Assembly: GCF_006874625.1 (NCBI RefSeq)
Contig: NZ_CP030034.1
Location: 2,418,001 to 2,482,000 of the forward strand
Direction of reading: 5' to 3'
Length of the DNA stretch: 64,000 nt
Source: Bdellovibrio sp. NC01
Lineage (GTDB): Bacteria; Bdellovibrionota; Bdellovibrionia; Bdellovibrionales; Bdellovibrionaceae
The notes below the pieces were generated by a model. It ran no database searches. It was not told the origin of the DNA and was given only the letters and a program-made list of their open reading frames with translations. The translations under genes and the position numbers were made by a program. How positions within the stretch are numbered: position 1 is the stretch's first letter; the number at the start of each line of letters is the position of its first letter. Shown here in pieces: positions 31,631-39,406 of the stretch.

Positions 31631-33730
31631 CTATAGGAACACACCTTCACAGCTTAATGAAACTCCCGCATGTGGAATATCCACCGGAATTGTAGGAGTC
31701 ACCGGTTGTTGCGGGCGAATACGATTTGCAATTTCTTGCAGGCCGAGCTTCAAAAGATCCGCGCGCGAAAGCTTTTCTTCGATTACCAAGCGTTTGTAAA
31801 CCAGTGCAGGATTTTGTATCGCAAATGATTTCAGCATTCCTGAAATTGAAAGCGTACTTCCACTGTCTTGCAAAAGTTTATTCACGATCACGATACCGCG
31901 ATTTAAACTGATAAAGTCATAAGGCAAACGCAAGCCCTGTAACATCGCCCACTTCGTCCAGCCATCGATAGAAGCTTCTTCGACTGAAAGAGTTTGTTTC
32001 ATGCGTGCAGCAACTAATGATTTCAACTGAGTTTGTGTGACAGTGTTATTGCCTTTATCACTGATGCTCCAGAAACCGCGTGCTGTCAGCTCAGGGTTCT
32101 TCAGTTCAACACCGACACCCAAAACCATCACCTGACGTTGCAATTCAGGTGAAATCACACCGCCCATTCCGTAATCCAGAATAGCGACGTTAATCTTTTC
32201 ATCTGTCAGACGAACCATGAAGTTACCTTGGTGCAGATCCGAGTGATAGAATCCGCCGCCGAATAACACTTCCTGGCCCCACATCTTAGCTAACGCTTCT
32301 ACAACACCTTTTTTTAATTCAGGAACCAACTCAGCCCAAGCATTCGCTTCTTTATCAAGCTTTTTACCAATGACCATTTCTTGAATCATGAATTTTGATT
32401 CTTTATTTTTTGGATCATAGATGTGCGGCACATGGAACTCGATATAGTTTTTATACTCGGGAGTATTCATCAATACTGTTTTATTGTAACGAGTCGCCGC
32501 AAGCTTTTGGCGCGCGATTGTGTCTTCTTGACTGAGCTCTGCCGTTACTGTTGCAGTCAGATCATTCACGATAGGAGAAAGCTTCGGGGCTCCCGTTTTT
32601 GCGAATTCTTCGTTGTTATCTAGAATAGCAGCCACTTCTTTAAGAATACGGGCATCTTCTTCAACGCGCTTTTCGATATCTGGTTTAATGAAGCGCACAA
32701 CCACATCTGCACGTTTGCCGTCGATAAGGATTTTTGCGCGGTGAACTTGGGCCATCGTACCTACGCCCAATGGTTTGCGTTCAAAATATAGGAACTGATA
32801 ATTAGCTTTTTCAGCTTGCAGAATTTCTTCCACTTGACGGTATGGAACGGGACGAACCGCATCTTCAAGACTTTTGAAAACCTTGATCATTTCAGGGCTT
32901 AAATCTCCCTGACGAGCCACGATTTGCAAAAGTTTTTGCAATTGTGGACCGCTGTTTTGCACCATGATTTCAAACTTCTGCATGTCTGAAGAATTCAAGT
33001 TTTCACCTAAAAACGAAGACACGATCAGTTTCTTTGAAGCTGGCGACAGGCGCGAAAAATATTCTGAAAACATGGTCTGCAAAACAATTCTTAAGGACAC
33101 ATCAGATGACTTCGCCATTTCCGAAGTTGCGATCTTTTCACCGATGCGATTGAATTCCTGCATCTTATCTTTAAATAGCGCTTCGTTTTCTTGCAACAAC
33201 CACTGTTTCGCAAGCTCTTTACCCTGTGGATCTTGCAACAAGGCCAGCGCATTAGACACGATATCAGCAGATTGTAAGTGTTTAGCGGCCTCTTTATCAG
33301 ACTCGCCCATTAATTTTAACTGCTCCGTTTGCCATTCAATGTATTTATTGATTTGCGCTTGGATACGAGGGCTTTTAGCATGGTATTCGACGATACCACG
33401 TGGACCGTCTTTTTCGATCAACTGTAAATCCAAAGCAACGCTTTGAGTATTCGGCCATTCACCACGGAAATGTTTTAGGAATTCTTCGAAATTAGTGACT
33501 TCAACAGTTTGTACGGGAATTTGGGCTACTGTCGTAAAGTATTTTTCGGCGCGATCCAGGTAATCGCGTTGGATGTCTTTGGCTTCACCGTGTGCGGCTA
33601 ACGCGTAGGTCATCGCTACCCGTTGCTCATAAGACAAATACAGATCCTGCTTCTTGGAACTTGCCCAAGAAACACAGGCCAGCAGGAACGCTAAGCATAG
33701 GCCGATTACAGCTGTAAACCGTCTCAACAT
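31631..33730 (-). CDS. Exported ABC1/UbiB-family atypical kinase-like protein
   Basis: ABC1/UbiB proteins are protein-kinase-like ATPases linked to quinone and lipid metabolism and normally face the cytoplasm or a matrix. This 699-residue protein starts with a clear export signal (MLRRFTAVIGLCLAFLLAC...SWA). After a helical region of about 260 residues comes the kinase-like core: PLGVGTMAQVHRA at 319-332, where the Ala-rich loop usually reads AAAS; VVVRFIKPDI, where the VAVK lysine position is Arg346; the retained catalytic loop HSDLHQGN (496-503) and a DYG metal-binding motif (Asp519). AAGGGTG precedes ATG 33730; the longer frame to 33754 is less likely. Possibly a pseudokinase or an envelope protein with altered nucleotide use. 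Confidence 0.87.
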   Translation of the reverse strand: MLRRFTAVIGLCLAFLLACVSWASSKKQDLYLSYEQRVAMTYALAAHGEAKDIQRDYLDRAEKYFTTVAQIPVQTVEVTNFEEFLKHFRGEWPNTQSVALDLQLIEKDGPRGIVEYHAKSPRIQAQINKYIEWQTEQLKLMGESDKEAAKHLQSADIVSNALALLQDPQGKELAKQWLLQENEALFKDKMQEFNRIGEKIATSEMAKSSDVSLRIVLQTMFSEYFSRLSPASKKLIVSSFLGENLNSSDMQKFEIMVQNSGPQLQKLLQIVARQGDLSPEMIKVFKSLEDAVRPVPYRQVEEILQAEKANYQFLYFERKPLGVGTMAQVHRAKILIDGKRADVVVRFIKPDIEKRVEEDARILKEVAAILDNNEEFAKTGAPKLSPIVNDLTATVTAELSQEDTIARQKLAATRYNKTVLMNTPEYKNYIEFHVPHIYDPKNKESKFMIQEMVIGKKLDKEANAWAELVPELKKGVVEALAKMWGQEVLFGGGFYHSDLHQGNFMVRLTDEKINVAILDYGMGGVISPELQRQVMVLGVGVELKNPELTARGFWSISDKGNNTVTQTQLKSLVAARMKQTLSVEEASIDGWTKWAMLQGLRLPYDFISLNRGIVIVNKLLQDSGSTLSISGMLKSFAIQNPALVYKRLVIEEKLSRADLLKLGLQEIANRIRPQQPVTPTIPVDIPHAGVSLSCEGVFL

Positions 33731-33882
33731 GATACACCCTTGTGAATAAAACAATTCACTAAGAAAAGATGCACAGCTCAGACCATGGGCATAAATACTT
33801 TAGGGCCTTACCACTCCCTAAGAGGTGTGTATGGGCTAGACAGGCAGCAAACTCTGTCGCTGCCTTTTGACTGTCGTGAGGC

Positions 33883-34792: not shown

Positions 34793-34821
34793 TTTACGCT
34801 AAACACAGACCTCTTTAGAAT
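34793..34821 (+). promoter_or_regulatory. Sigma70-like promoter of the hydrolase/GMC operon
   Basis: TTTACG (34793-34798) and TAGAAT (34816-34821) are separated by exactly 17 bases, 4/6 and 5/6 of consensus, and lie about 22 bases before the GTG start, with AAGGAA as ribosome-binding site between. Upstream, GCGCAAG and CTTGCGC form a widely spaced inverted repeat around 34677-34738. Confidence 0.6.
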
Positions 34822-34843: not shown

Positions 34844-36616
34844 GTGACAACACATCGCACTTCCCTCGAGTTCACAGAGAGAATGGCCGGCCACTTCGTG
34901 CCAAAACAATTCAACCTTTCTGCAGAAAATCCCCTTAAGAAAAACGATTTCGTACAGATTGAATCAGGTTCAAATCGAGAAGATTTTGAATTCACTTTGA
35001 CGATCAAAACCAACGACATCGATCAGTTCATTACCGATCCTCTTTTACAAGCAGAAGCCTTCGGCGTGATTAGTGGACTTTCAGACCAAGAACCTTTGAA
35101 AATCGAACAAGGTATTTTCAATCTGTTTGTGCGCCCTGATGCGAGCCCTGATTTAGATACAGCAAAAGAAATGCACTACACCCTATTCTTGAAAGATGCC
35201 CAAGGAAAACCGTGGACTTTCTTTGGCTTCAAAGAGGTCGTCAAAGAAGACACCTTTGAGATGTGGGCGCAAACGACAACGCTGTATTATTATATCTGGG
35301 AAGGCCATTCGACGTTTGATAATCCCATCGCTAAAAAAGTGCGCGGCGTAGGAATTTTGCGAATTTCAGTCAGCGACTTCATCAAGCAATTAACGACATT
35401 TAAAACGAATGCTGCTTCGATCGTCGATGAACAAGAAGCTATCGTAAAATTCTTAAACGTCTTTGCTGGTAATTTGTGGCAGGCCTATGCGCCGTTTGTT
35501 TTTACAACCACAAGTTCGCGTTGGAACGAGCATCTATTCCCAATGAATACCACTCAAGGTGTGGCTATGGGGGAAAAGACGTTACATCCCATCGATACCC
35601 ACGACGGGCTTACGATTTCTTTGCAACGCTTTAAAGTGAAAGAAACGAAAAACGTCGTGCTGCTTTTGCACGGTCTGACAACTTCAACGGACATGTACAT
35701 CATGCCCGAGCATCAAAACTTTGTGAACTATCTGCATTCGAATGGTTTTACGGATGTATGGTCATTGGATTGGCGTGGAAGTGGCAGATTCACTTACAAC
35801 TTGATGCCACACCGTTATAACTTAGACGACATCGCAAAGAACGATATTCCGAAAGCTTTGGAGTTCATTCGTCAAAGCTGCGGTAAAGACGTCAAAGTTC
35901 ACGTGGTCTGCCACTGCGTGGGTTCAATCAGCTTCATGGCGTCGCTTGCTGCGGGTTATGTCGACAATATTGCAAGTATCATTTCAAACAGCGTATCGCT
36001 AAGTCCAAAAGTTCGCTGGCAGGCATTTTTAAAGATGATCTTTGGACCCGAACTTCTTGAATACATCTTTGGTTATGCGTACATCAGTCCGCGCATGGCC
36101 TACTTCCCGGGGCCGGGGTTTGGTAAATGGTTATACTGGATGGAGCGAGGCATTCGTCACGAATGTAAAGAGCCTGCCTGTCACCTCGTTAGTTTCATGT
36201 GGGGTTGGGGTTATCCTGCCGCTTACAACCATCGCAACATGCATCCGACGACTCACCGTCGTTTAGTGGATCTATTTGGTGGCACAAGTTTTCACTATTA
36301 TCGCCATATTCGAAAAATGCTTTTTGCGAAAGCATCGGTGTCGTTCGATAAAAAAATTAATTACCTTGAAGAGTGTAAAAAGAAAACTCTGCCGCCGACG
36401 TTGTTTATCAGTGGCAGCGACAATCACATCTTCCCAGGATCGAACAAACAAACTTATGAAGCTCTAAAAGACAGCAAAAACGCAGACCGCGTACAATATC
36501 TTGAATTCGCCAATTACGGCCATCAAGACACATTCATGGGTCAGTATTCACATATCGAAGTGTTCCCACAACTTTTAGCGTTCTTAAAAAAACACGAGGT
36601 GCGCGATGCAAATTGA
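34844..36616 (+). CDS. Alpha/beta hydrolase with N-terminal accessory domain and Cys at the nucleophile position
   Basis: The 590-residue protein has two parts. Residues 1 to about 225 (FTLTIKTNDIDQFITDPLLQAEAFG, FNLFVRPD, TTTLYYYIWEGH) form a domain that I recall from long GMC-oxidoreductase fusion proteins of other bacteria. The rest is an alpha/beta hydrolase: oxyanion segment LLLHGLTTSTDMY, nucleophile elbow VVCHCVGS with Cys358 where Ser is usual, acid segment FISGSDNHIFPG and a late His in FANYGHQD. A Cys nucleophile is known in PHA synthase-like hydrolases. The start is GTG with AAGGAA upstream. It overlaps the next gene by 11 bases, and its C-terminus has no membrane segment. Confidence 0.85.
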   Translation: MTTHRTSLEFTERMAGHFVPKQFNLSAENPLKKNDFVQIESGSNREDFEFTLTIKTNDIDQFITDPLLQAEAFGVISGLSDQEPLKIEQGIFNLFVRPDASPDLDTAKEMHYTLFLKDAQGKPWTFFGFKEVVKEDTFEMWAQTTTLYYYIWEGHSTFDNPIAKKVRGVGILRISVSDFIKQLTTFKTNAASIVDEQEAIVKFLNVFAGNLWQAYAPFVFTTTSSRWNEHLFPMNTTQGVAMGEKTLHPIDTHDGLTISLQRFKVKETKNVVLLLHGLTTSTDMYIMPEHQNFVNYLHSNGFTDVWSLDWRGSGRFTYNLMPHRYNLDDIAKNDIPKALEFIRQSCGKDVKVHVVCHCVGSISFMASLAAGYVDNIASIISNSVSLSPKVRWQAFLKMIFGPELLEYIFGYAYISPRMAYFPGPGFGKWLYWMERGIRHECKEPACHLVSFMWGWGYPAAYNHRNMHPTTHRRLVDLFGGTSFHYYRHIRKMLFAKASVSFDKKINYLEECKKKTLPPTLFISGSDNHIFPGSNKQTYEALKDSKNADRVQYLEFANYGHQDTFMGQYSHIEVFPQLLAFLKKHEVRDAN

Positions 36617-37706
36617 TTTCCACTTAGGAGTCACTTACGTCCTTGCCCGCATGAGTGGCTTTAGTCCCTTTGAAGCGAACACCATCGCCAGCAGTTCACA
36701 ATATGTCGACGACGCTGTTGAGTCAGGAAAGATCTTATTCACAAACAGATCCGCTTATGAATTCGAAGCCAGTGCGCATCGCATGTTAGACTATCGCAAT
36801 TTTGAAGAGCTTGCGAATCATCACGTGTGGATTCCTTTCCACTTTATTCCCGGCAACGAAATCCGCAGCAGCGGCGCCGATTCCTTGGTGCAAAGGCTGA
36901 TCTGCCGTCCTAATAGCGTCATCGCTCAAGATATTCTTAAAAGCACAATCACAAACTTTAATCGCAACTTCGGTTATCACCTGCTTGGTGTAACAACGCA
37001 CGCCTACGTCGATACCTGGGCCCATCAGGGCTTTGCCGGCATCACTGACAAAGTAAATATGGTTGATGAGATCTACGACGACGAAGGCGAACTGGATCAA
37101 GAGATGATGACCTATCGCAAGAAATACTTCCGCAGAAATCCACTGCGTCGCCTGGTTGACTGGATCAAATCTTTTTTTGTCAGCAAGTATCTGCCGGTGG
37201 GGCACGGTTCGGTCTTAAGTTATCCGGACTTGCCCTACTTGCGTTGGCGCTACAAAGACTGGGAAGGTCGCATCATTCGTCGCGACAACCCGGCCGATTA
37301 CATGCAAGCCGTCCATCATGTCCTGGAATTCTTTAAAGAGGTTCGCAAAGCGCACAATTTACCGTTGGTAAAAGTTTTCGACGAAGACATTGCAAAAATC
37401 AAAGAGCTGATTGAAAGCATCGACGACGAAGAAGGCACGGATCGTTTAGAAAAATGGAAAAACGAAATTCTTTGCGGCGCTTTTAAATTTGGAACCGATG
37501 TCTGGAGATATCAAGCGGAAGGCCCAGAGTCCTGGCTGAAAGAAGCCTTCGATATCGAATTCCACGAACAATTTGAAATGGAAAACGTGGCTTACAAGGA
37601 CTCTTTCTTAAAATCCAACTGGAAGATGATGCACGATGCGCTGATTTATTATCGTTTCAGCGTCCTGCATGAGGTTCTTCCTAAACACGAAATCTGTGTA
37701 GCGTAA
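36606..37706 (+). CDS. DUF6765-like, PLC-like metal-dependent protein of unknown function
   Basis: A 366-residue cytoplasmic-looking protein with the start MQIDFHLGVTYVLARMSGFS, then ASSSQYVDDAV, FHFIPGNEIRS and THAYVDTWAHQGFAGI. The spaced His/Asp residues (DFH, QYVDD, HAYVDTWAHQ) resemble the metal-binding pattern of zinc-dependent phospholipase C/P1-nuclease-like helical folds, and the opening matches what I recall of DUF6765; both are tentative. It overlaps the hydrolase gene by 11 bases and precedes the GMC gene by 8 bases, so it is a fixed member of this operon. No signal peptide. Confidence 0.75.
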   Translation: MQIDFHLGVTYVLARMSGFSPFEANTIASSSQYVDDAVESGKILFTNRSAYEFEASAHRMLDYRNFEELANHHVWIPFHFIPGNEIRSSGADSLVQRLICRPNSVIAQDILKSTITNFNRNFGYHLLGVTTHAYVDTWAHQGFAGITDKVNMVDEIYDDEGELDQEMMTYRKKYFRRNPLRRLVDWIKSFFVSKYLPVGHGSVLSYPDLPYLRWRYKDWEGRIIRRDNPADYMQAVHHVLEFFKEVRKAHNLPLVKVFDEDIAKIKELIESIDDEEGTDRLEKWKNEILCGAFKFGTDVWRYQAEGPESWLKEAFDIEFHEQFEMENVAYKDSFLKSNWKMMHDALIYYRFSVLHEVLPKHEICVA

Positions 37707-37714
37707 GGTTCAAC

Positions 37715-39406
37715 ATGAAAACTGATTTTGATTATGTCGTTATTGGTTCTGGTTTCGGTGGCTCAGTCATGAGCTGTCGTTTGACTGAAAAAGGTTACAA
37801 CGTTTGTTTGCTAGAGCGCGGTCGTCACTGGAAAATGCATGAATTCCCCCGCCGCCCGCAAGATATTCAAGACAATATGTTCTGGGACCCGGAAGATAAA
37901 AAATTTGGTCTGATGGAGTTCCGCGACACACCCGAAAGTGACGTCATGACTTTGACTGCCAGTGGCCTTGGCGGTGGCAGCCTGATTTACGCAAACGTTT
38001 TGTATCGAATGCCAGAAGAGTTTTTCCAATTAGGTTGGCCTAAGATCTTTAATCGCAAAACGCTTGATCCCTACTATGACAAAGTGATCGCAACGATGGA
38101 GGCGAAACCCTATCCCGTCGATACCGACAGTTATTATAAAAACACGCCGAAAACATTTGCACTGAAGAAAGCCGCTGAAGAAATGCCACAGAATCCTGAG
38201 GCAACGGCGAAACAGGAATTTGTGCTTCCTCCCCTTGCGGTCCGTTTTGAAGGCGAATTCCCAGGACATCAAACTTTGAATTCCCATGGTGCCATTCAAT
38301 CGAAATGCACGAAATGCGGTGAATGCGATATCGGTTGCAACATCCACGCAAAAAATACTTTAGATCTGAATTACATTCAACGTGCGCGCTTCTTGAAAAA
38401 CGCTGGCAAACTTGAAGTGAAAACTCAGGCTGAAGTAACGAAGATTGAACAGGTCGAGGGTCATTATAAAGTTACACTCGTTGTTCCAGAGTTCCCACTG
38501 CAAGAAATTGTCATCACAGCAAACAAAGTGATTGTGTCTGCGGGATCTGTGGGCTCATCGTCTTTACTTTTAAAAATGAAAGCCAAAGGTTATTTGCCAA
38601 AATTAAATAACAACCTTGGTAAAAAATGGTGTGGCAATGGCGATTTGCTGGGAATGGTTTTCGACGCAAAAAAACCGCTAGATCCAACGAATGGTCCCGT
38701 GATTACTGGTGCTATTAAGTATTCATTTAAAAATTATCCAGACGGTTTCCCGCACGGCATGTACTTAGAAGATGCGGGCTTCCCGATCGGCATGGCGTGG
38801 TACTTGTCAGGTAAAGTTCCACAATTCGATGGCATCACGGGCGTCTTTAAACTAGCGTGGCAAAATATTAAGAAATTCGTTTGTAAAACCTTTGGCATTC
38901 ACATCACACCGCAAATTAATGTCGGTGATGAATTTGCGCGCGCCTTGGATAAAGCGGACTTTGCCCGCCGTGCATTTGTTCTGTTGGGCATGGGCCGCGA
39001 TAGATCCGATGGCATCATTCGTTTGCGCGAAGATGGCCAAGCGGTGATTGAATGGAAAATGGATAAGAGCGAACTTCATTTCGAGCGCGTGCGCACTGAA
39101 ATGAAAAAGATCGCCGAAAATGTCGGTGGTGTTTTTGTCGAAAATCCCCTGACCTATTTGAATAAAGTCATCGCGGTTCATCCACTGGGCGGCTGCCCGA
39201 TGTCTGACGATCCTGCGGAAGGTTTTGTAAATTCAAAGGGTGAAGTCTATGGCTACGAAGGACTTTATGTGATCGATGGCAGTATTCTGCCAACGTCGAC
39301 GGGACCAAACCCGTCGCTGACGATTGCTGCCGTCGCTGAGTATATCGCAGATCAAATCCCCGTGAAGGTCAGACTGTCTGATTATTCCGCAGCGTCGGCG
39401 CAGTAA
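37715..39406 (+). CDS. GMC-family FAD-dependent oxidoreductase (cholesterol-oxidase-like)
   Basis: A 563-residue flavoenzyme beginning with the FAD Rossmann motif VVIGSGFGGSVMSCRL and LLERGRHW, a second FAD-binding segment TASGLGGGSLIYANVLYRMP, a four-Cys segment KCTKCGECDIGCNIHAKNTLD, and the C-terminal GMC end HPLGGCPMSDDP with IDGSILPTSTGPNPSLTIAAVAEYIA. The His in HPLGGC and the late Asn are the expected catalytic pair. Substrates in this subgroup include sterols and other hydroxylated lipids. No Tat or Sec signal is present, unlike secreted cholesterol oxidases. It ends four bases from the convergent thioredoxin/TPR gene. Confidence 0.9.
   Translation: MKTDFDYVVIGSGFGGSVMSCRLTEKGYNVCLLERGRHWKMHEFPRRPQDIQDNMFWDPEDKKFGLMEFRDTPESDVMTLTASGLGGGSLIYANVLYRMPEEFFQLGWPKIFNRKTLDPYYDKVIATMEAKPYPVDTDSYYKNTPKTFALKKAAEEMPQNPEATAKQEFVLPPLAVRFEGEFPGHQTLNSHGAIQSKCTKCGECDIGCNIHAKNTLDLNYIQRARFLKNAGKLEVKTQAEVTKIEQVEGHYKVTLVVPEFPLQEIVITANKVIVSAGSVGSSSLLLKMKAKGYLPKLNNNLGKKWCGNGDLLGMVFDAKKPLDPTNGPVITGAIKYSFKNYPDGFPHGMYLEDAGFPIGMAWYLSGKVPQFDGITGVFKLAWQNIKKFVCKTFGIHITPQINVGDEFARALDKADFARRAFVLLGMGRDRSDGIIRLREDGQAVIEWKMDKSELHFERVRTEMKKIAENVGGVFVENPLTYLNKVIAVHPLGGCPMSDDPAEGFVNSKGEVYGYEGLYVIDGSILPTSTGPNPSLTIAAVAEYIADQIPVKVRLSDYSAASAQ

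Follow-up and report, generated by a model that had tools for sequence, protein, structure and literature searches.

Three adjacent genes of Bdellovibrio sp. NC01, lying within the 64,000-nucleotide stretch of DNA that was analysed (the window), may form a cytosolic, modular lipid-processing operon in which a GMC flavoenzyme and a cysteine hydrolase constitute the core and a DUF6765 protein is optional; we put the chances of this reading as a whole at about even. According to the ORF calls, all three genes lie on one strand and span positions 34844-39406 (Table 1). The overlap of 11 bases between genes 1 and 2 (36606-36616) and the gap of 8 bases between genes 2 and 3 (37707-37714) agree with the original prediction, and Shine-Dalgarno-like purines precede each start (AAAGGAAAC for gene 1, GAGG for gene 2, and AAGG for gene 3). 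The 17-spaced promoter that had been proposed upstream is present as a match (34793-34821, 9 of 12 consensus bases), but six matches of that quality occur in the region compared with 7.6 +/- 3.0 in shuffled sequence. Because it is equally common in shuffles, it carries no weight as evidence.

Table 1. Features of the three-gene operon, with positions in the window.
Feature	Position	Strand	Remarks
Gene 1, hydN-hydC protein	34844..36616	+	590 aa, GTG start; unnamed N-terminal domain and alpha/beta hydrolase with Cys nucleophile
Gene 2, DUF6765 protein	36606..37706	+	366 aa; PF20551 match
Gene 3, GMC flavoenzyme	37715..39406	+	563 aa; FAD GxGxxG, catalytic His489/Asn532
hydN domain, unnamed, ~residues 1-225 of gene 1	34844..35518	+	without Pfam or PDB match
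hydC, alpha/beta hydrolase domain, ~residues 231-590 of gene 1	35534..36613	+	Abhydrolase_1
Cys358 codon, nucleophile elbow H-C-x-G	35915..35917	+	invariant 47/47
Asn527 codon, catalytic-acid position G-x-x-D	36422..36424	+	invariant 48/48
His560 codon, catalytic His, H-x-D	36521..36523	+	invariant 48/48
Putative Fe-S site of the GMC protein, C198-x2-C201-x2-C204-x3-C208	38306..38338	+	invariant 43/43
Weak sigma-70-like promoter match TTTACG-17-TAGAAT	34793..34821	+	not above chance

A survey of 60 relatives yielded 10 Bdellovibrionota genomes with a full-length DUF6765 protein, and in all 10 the hydrolase and GMC genes directly adjoin it, which bears out the expected conservation of the neighbourhood. 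The gene order is hydrolase-DUF6765-GMC in nearly all of them; L019 and L024 have hydrolase-GMC-DUF6765. NC01 shares the flanks on both sides with L011, part of them with L016, and none with L012, L013, L014, L015, and L017; because the flanks mostly differ, synteny does not account for the conservation of the block, which is kept as a unit. The hydrolase is present in 21 of 144 genomes of the class. Nine loci, all from Bdellovibrio, hold hydrolase and GMC genes without DUF6765 between them, and one genome (G006) holds both forms. Since these nine loci keep the pair alone, the hydrolase-GMC pair is the core and DUF6765 an addition.

Gene 1 had been described as a hydrolase whose elbow reads CHCVGS, with Cys358 in place of serine, and this cysteine is kept across phyla. 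Abhydrolase_1 covers residues 270-397 of the protein (Pfam), and the nucleophile elbow C356-H357-C358-V359-G360 fits the Sm-x-Nu-x-Gly pattern of alpha/beta hydrolases. His357, Cys358, and Gly360 each occur in all 47 homologues having letters at that position, none of which has serine at the elbow, and His560 and Asp562 are invariant in 48 of 48. In this fold the catalytic aspartate lies in G-x-x-D after beta7, a place that we take to be occupied by G524-x-x-N527, in which residue 526 is variable and Asn527 is found in every homologue (48/48). With an invariant cysteine and an invariant asparagine at these two positions, the protein does not conform to a serine lipase or esterase with its Ser nucleophile and Asp/Glu acid. 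Judged from these residues, the catalytic set is likely Cys358-His560-Asn527, an apparent Cys-His-Asn triad with the same residue types as papain-like proteases. The original prediction was silent on the replacement of Asp by Asn as the catalytic acid, as it was on the separate N-terminal domain and on the four-cysteine motif of the GMC protein.

Acid and gastric lipases of the Abhydrolase_1 type (1k8q, 6v7n) resemble gene 1 in the core, the nucleophile elbow, and a His-x-Asp near the C terminus, whereas gene 1 differs from them by the exchanges of Ser to Cys and of the catalytic Asp to Asn, by its N-terminal hydN, and by being intracellular. A cysteine nucleophile in the elbow is also found in PHA synthase and dienelactone hydrolase. 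These enzymes use Cys-Asp-His, whereas gene 1 would use Cys-Asn-His, and the family is not otherwise close. A cysteine nucleophile would be expected to form a thioester, suiting acyl transfer or thioester cleavage. Engineered cysteine lipases retain the aspartate, and it has been asked whether natural cysteine-lipases exist (PMC6642262), a question on which a natural cysteine alpha/beta hydrolase with asparagine at the acid place bears. The N-terminal hydN domain gave no Pfam family and, in a profile search of PDB sequences, no meaningful match. Elsewhere hydN is fused to GMC proteins, located at the C terminus of patatin proteins, or encoded by a stand-alone gene, and it is most likely a shared accessory domain linking the GMC enzyme and the cysteine hydrolase.

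Gene 3 had been recognised as a GMC flavoenzyme resembling cholesterol oxidase but lacking an export signal, and both points stand: it matches the GMC families PF05199 and PF00732, with GMC_oxred_N and _C scoring 45 and 68 bits against cut-offs of 23 and 24.6, and no export signal is apparent on reading the sequence. The FAD motif G11-G16, H489, and N532 are invariant in the homologue alignment. A PDB sequence search gave cholesterol oxidases as the best solved relatives (E 2e-27), and the GMC-type cholesterol oxidases (1coy, 1b4v) share with gene 3 the GMC fold, the FAD motif, and the His/Asn pair (H489/N532). The assignment to the cholesterol oxidase equivalog itself (NCBIfam NF058674) was rejected, as its score of 212 bits falls far short of the 850 required. 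No close GMC paralogue was found elsewhere in this genome.

All 43 GMC homologues have Cys198, Cys201, Cys204, and Cys208 (C-x2-C-x2-C-x3-C), which the aligned cholesterol oxidases lack; gene 3 further differs from the latter by its partner hydrolase. In the FAD glucose dehydrogenase alpha subunit of Burkholderia cepacia (BcGDH; 6A2U), a 3Fe-4S GMC enzyme with the same His/Asn pair, the cluster ligands are C212, C218, and C222 (C-x5-C-x3-C; PMC6719666). The spacing C198-x5-C204-x3-C208 is identical, so gene 3 contains the three-cysteine arrangement of the BcGDH type, and in the search with the GMC family profile 6a2u ranks directly after the cholesterol oxidases (E 1.4e-19). Because the invariant motif overlays the BcGDH 3Fe-4S site, the GMC protein probably carries an Fe-S cluster beside the flavin that takes the flavin's electrons. 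The additional Cys201 would probably make this a 4Fe-4S cluster, and one Pseudonocardia copy has exactly the three-cysteine form. The protein thus looks like an Fe-S dehydrogenase rather than an oxidase, and a GMC enzyme of this four-cysteine type, if true, would be an extension of the class of Fe-S dehydrogenases that bioelectrodes employ. Compared with 6A2U, gene 3 is apparently cytosolic and of low sequence similarity, and the Bdellovibrio operon has neither a multihaem cytochrome nor a hitchhiker subunit; no cytochrome gene of any kind lies within the three genes. A literature search found nothing on ChoD with iron-sulfur.

The middle protein is indeed of the DUF6765 type, with a nearly full-length match to PF20551 (E 2.1e-96, 324 bits against a cut-off of 26.6). 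Its description as PLC-like, with metal-binding-like His and Asp residues, is supported by the ligand series of the P1/S1-PLC enzymes and by matches of the predicted fold. A first structure model from 10 sequences (pLDDT 67) gave no fold match, and a model from 62 sequences reached a mean pLDDT of 84. Foldseek E-values were not significant. In a second-look structural alignment against 273 chains, all those listed are clostridial phospholipase C or S1, P1, and TBN1 nucleases, aligned over 150-170 residues from residue 1 with Z scores of 4.4-6.5, of which even 6.5 lies below a level that is safe alone. The hhalign probabilities against the S1-P1 (PF02265) and PF00882 (Zn_dep_PLPC) profiles were 0.8-3.5%, with no Pfam hit, and searches of PDB sequences with the DUF6765 profile and of a viral fold library gave no meaningful match and no match, respectively. 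No paper naming DUF6765 was found.

Residues D4, H6, D35, H79, H132, D136, H140, H200, and D208 are invariant in the 62 DUF6765 sequences and retained in secreted relatives (L184-L189). The S1-P1 proteins of related genomes have W1, H6, W-x-D, H, H-x3-D, H, and H..D in the order seen in DUF6765, and the ligand series of the PLC/P1 superfamily (N-term, H, D, H, H-x3-D, H, H..D) is present. The N-terminal residue of S1 nuclease is itself a zinc ligand (PMC5201275). DUF6765 thus resembles the phospholipase C/S1-P1 superfamily in the ordered N-terminal residue, H6, WxD/YxD, HxxxD, H, and H..D, and perhaps in its predicted fold (Z up to 6.5), whereas it has no detectable profile similarity, is intracellular, constitutes its own Pfam family, and contains the extra conserved D4, D36, and H58. 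Modelled fold and conserved ligands speak well, though not conclusively, for a trinuclear zinc site, and DUF6765 is a probable zinc phosphohydrolase; this would be its first structural assignment. The secreted relatives, found in other Bdellovibrionota, are proteins of ~550-660 aa in which a signal peptide precedes a set of metal ligands like that of DUF6765. They represent a second, exported DUF6765 branch, the mature start lying at the matching position right after the apparent signal peptide.

For a wider survey, the best 80 DUF6765 loci among genome contigs, some of them short, were used. They span cyanobacteria, Gamma- and Betaproteobacteria, Desulfobacterota, Nitrospirae, and others, and by our count GMC and/or hydrolase domains lie close to DUF6765 at 24 of the 80. 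Amphritea (L047, L071) encodes a single GMC-hydN-hydC protein of 1143-1144 aa with DUF6765 as the next gene, whereas Nostocales have GMC-hydN (~780 aa), DUF6765, and then hydN-hydC. Plasmid records hold three-part GMC-hydN-hydC fusions in Leptospira, Azospirillum, Rhizobium, Bernardetia, and Variovorax, the fused proteins being ~1140 aa long, and separate genes for hydN, hydC, and/or GMC in Pseudonocardia and Rhodococcus. The suggestion that the operon is the split version of an actinobacterial fusion is therefore correct as to form: fusions exist, located in Gamma-, Alpha-, and Betaproteobacteria, Leptospira, and Bacteroidota, but the actinobacterial homologues retrieved are separate genes. 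Nothing was found in the literature on a GMC-hydrolase fusion. Whole genomes also contain DUF6765 without the hydrolase, and since it can be present where both partner genes are missing, its role may be independent of theirs.

Other neighbours were seen at several of these loci. In anaerobes and some others, the neighbours of DUF6765 are a glycyl radical enzyme whose type is unassigned, its radical SAM activase, and an unnamed protein of 639 or 213 aa (L058:1492-7631, L027:6574-9092). Cyanobacteria have a patatin phospholipase-hydN fusion beside an acetoacetate-decarboxylase (ADC)-like gene (L028:11155-12720, L041:11362-12957), a protein with a glycosyl hydrolase family 1 match and a solute-binding-protein family 3 match inside it (L041:13016-15274), and a cluster that also encodes a RoxA-like cytochrome c, a P450 most similar to CYP152, and an unnamed protein of 489-559 aa that matches no Pfam family (L029:11139-16267). 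On a Rhodococcus plasmid, a type I PKS cluster contains a stand-alone hydN directly ahead of a cysteine hydrolase (L166:7399-9065). An Aeromonas conjugative plasmid has DUF6765 beside Mov34/MPN and ThiF (L168:4001-7975), a combination seen in some defence systems; a defence reading of DUF6765 was rejected, as it matched no PADLOC model. Patatin-hydN, the ADC-like gene, the fatty-acid-type P450, the RoxA-like cytochrome c, and the type I PKS are neighbours of a lipid type, none of which was recognised at the Bdellovibrio operon, and the context in cyanobacteria and Rhodococcus may transfer poorly to Bdellovibrio.

In the order of reactions that we infer, DUF6765 would act as an intracellular trinuclear-zinc phosphodiesterase or phosphomonoesterase of the phospholipase C/P1-nuclease type and release a lipid alcohol by cleaving off its phosphate or head group. 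The GMC enzyme would oxidise an alcohol group of the lipid-like substrate by means of FAD and the His/Asn pair, an Fe-S cluster at its surface relaying the electrons to a carrier instead of their passing directly to O2. The hydrolase would form a thioester on Cys358, assisted by His560 and Asn527, and then hydrolyse or transfer the acyl group. A more far-reaching form of the proposal, which we advance tentatively and consider rather doubtful, is an undescribed, widely transferred module that acts on a new lipid class: a natural Cys-His-Asn alpha/beta hydrolase and a 4Fe-4S GMC dehydrogenase would be connected through a new accessory domain and would share one reaction path with a phospholipase-like, trinuclear-zinc enzyme inside the cell. 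Checkable chemistry is thereby proposed for three protein families, and since the module is spread over many phyla, one assay would help to annotate many genes.

The module could instead be biosynthetic, finishing or decorating a self-made lipid such as a surface glycolipid, a polyketide-lipid, or a signalling oxylipin, with the cysteine enzyme as an acyltransferase. The Rhodococcus hydN and hydC genes lie within a type I PKS cluster, the cyanobacterial loci with their P450, RoxA-like, and ADC-like genes resemble specialised-metabolite clusters, and cysteine nucleophiles in this fold are known from the acyl-transferring PHA synthases. Yet no synthase, acyl-CoA ligase, or glycosyltransferase was recognised beside the Bdellovibrio operon, and we regard a biosynthetic role as possible but on balance unlikely. 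A little less probable again is that DUF6765 is a nuclease- or nucleotidase-type protein, present in the operon for historical reasons, with the hydrolase and GMC enzyme as the functional unit. This would accord with the nine Bdellovibrio loci, with the whole genomes that have DUF6765 and no hydrolase, and with the S1/P1 nucleases among the structural matches. On the other hand, the genes overlap and stay together, in several different arrangements, across Bdellovibrionota, cyanobacteria, and Amphritea, which argues for a functional tie of DUF6765 to the pair.

Oxidation and cleavage of a sterol or terpenoid from prey, as put forward in the original prediction, appears quite improbable. Cholesterol oxidases are the closest solved GMC relatives, but the four-cysteine motif of the Fe-S type is absent from them, and gene 3 falls far below the cut-off of the cholesterol oxidase model, which speaks against a sterol-like substrate. 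Apart from the resemblance to the GMC family and the predatory habit of the host, nothing supports sterol use or a role in predation; cyanobacteria and other bacteria that do not prey commonly have the module, and its proteins have no signal peptides. Nor are sterols known from the Gram-negative bacteria on which Bdellovibrio usually preys. Apart from the operon, positions 31631-33754 of the window encode an ABC1/UbiB-like protein with an apparent N-terminal signal peptide, as read from its sequence.
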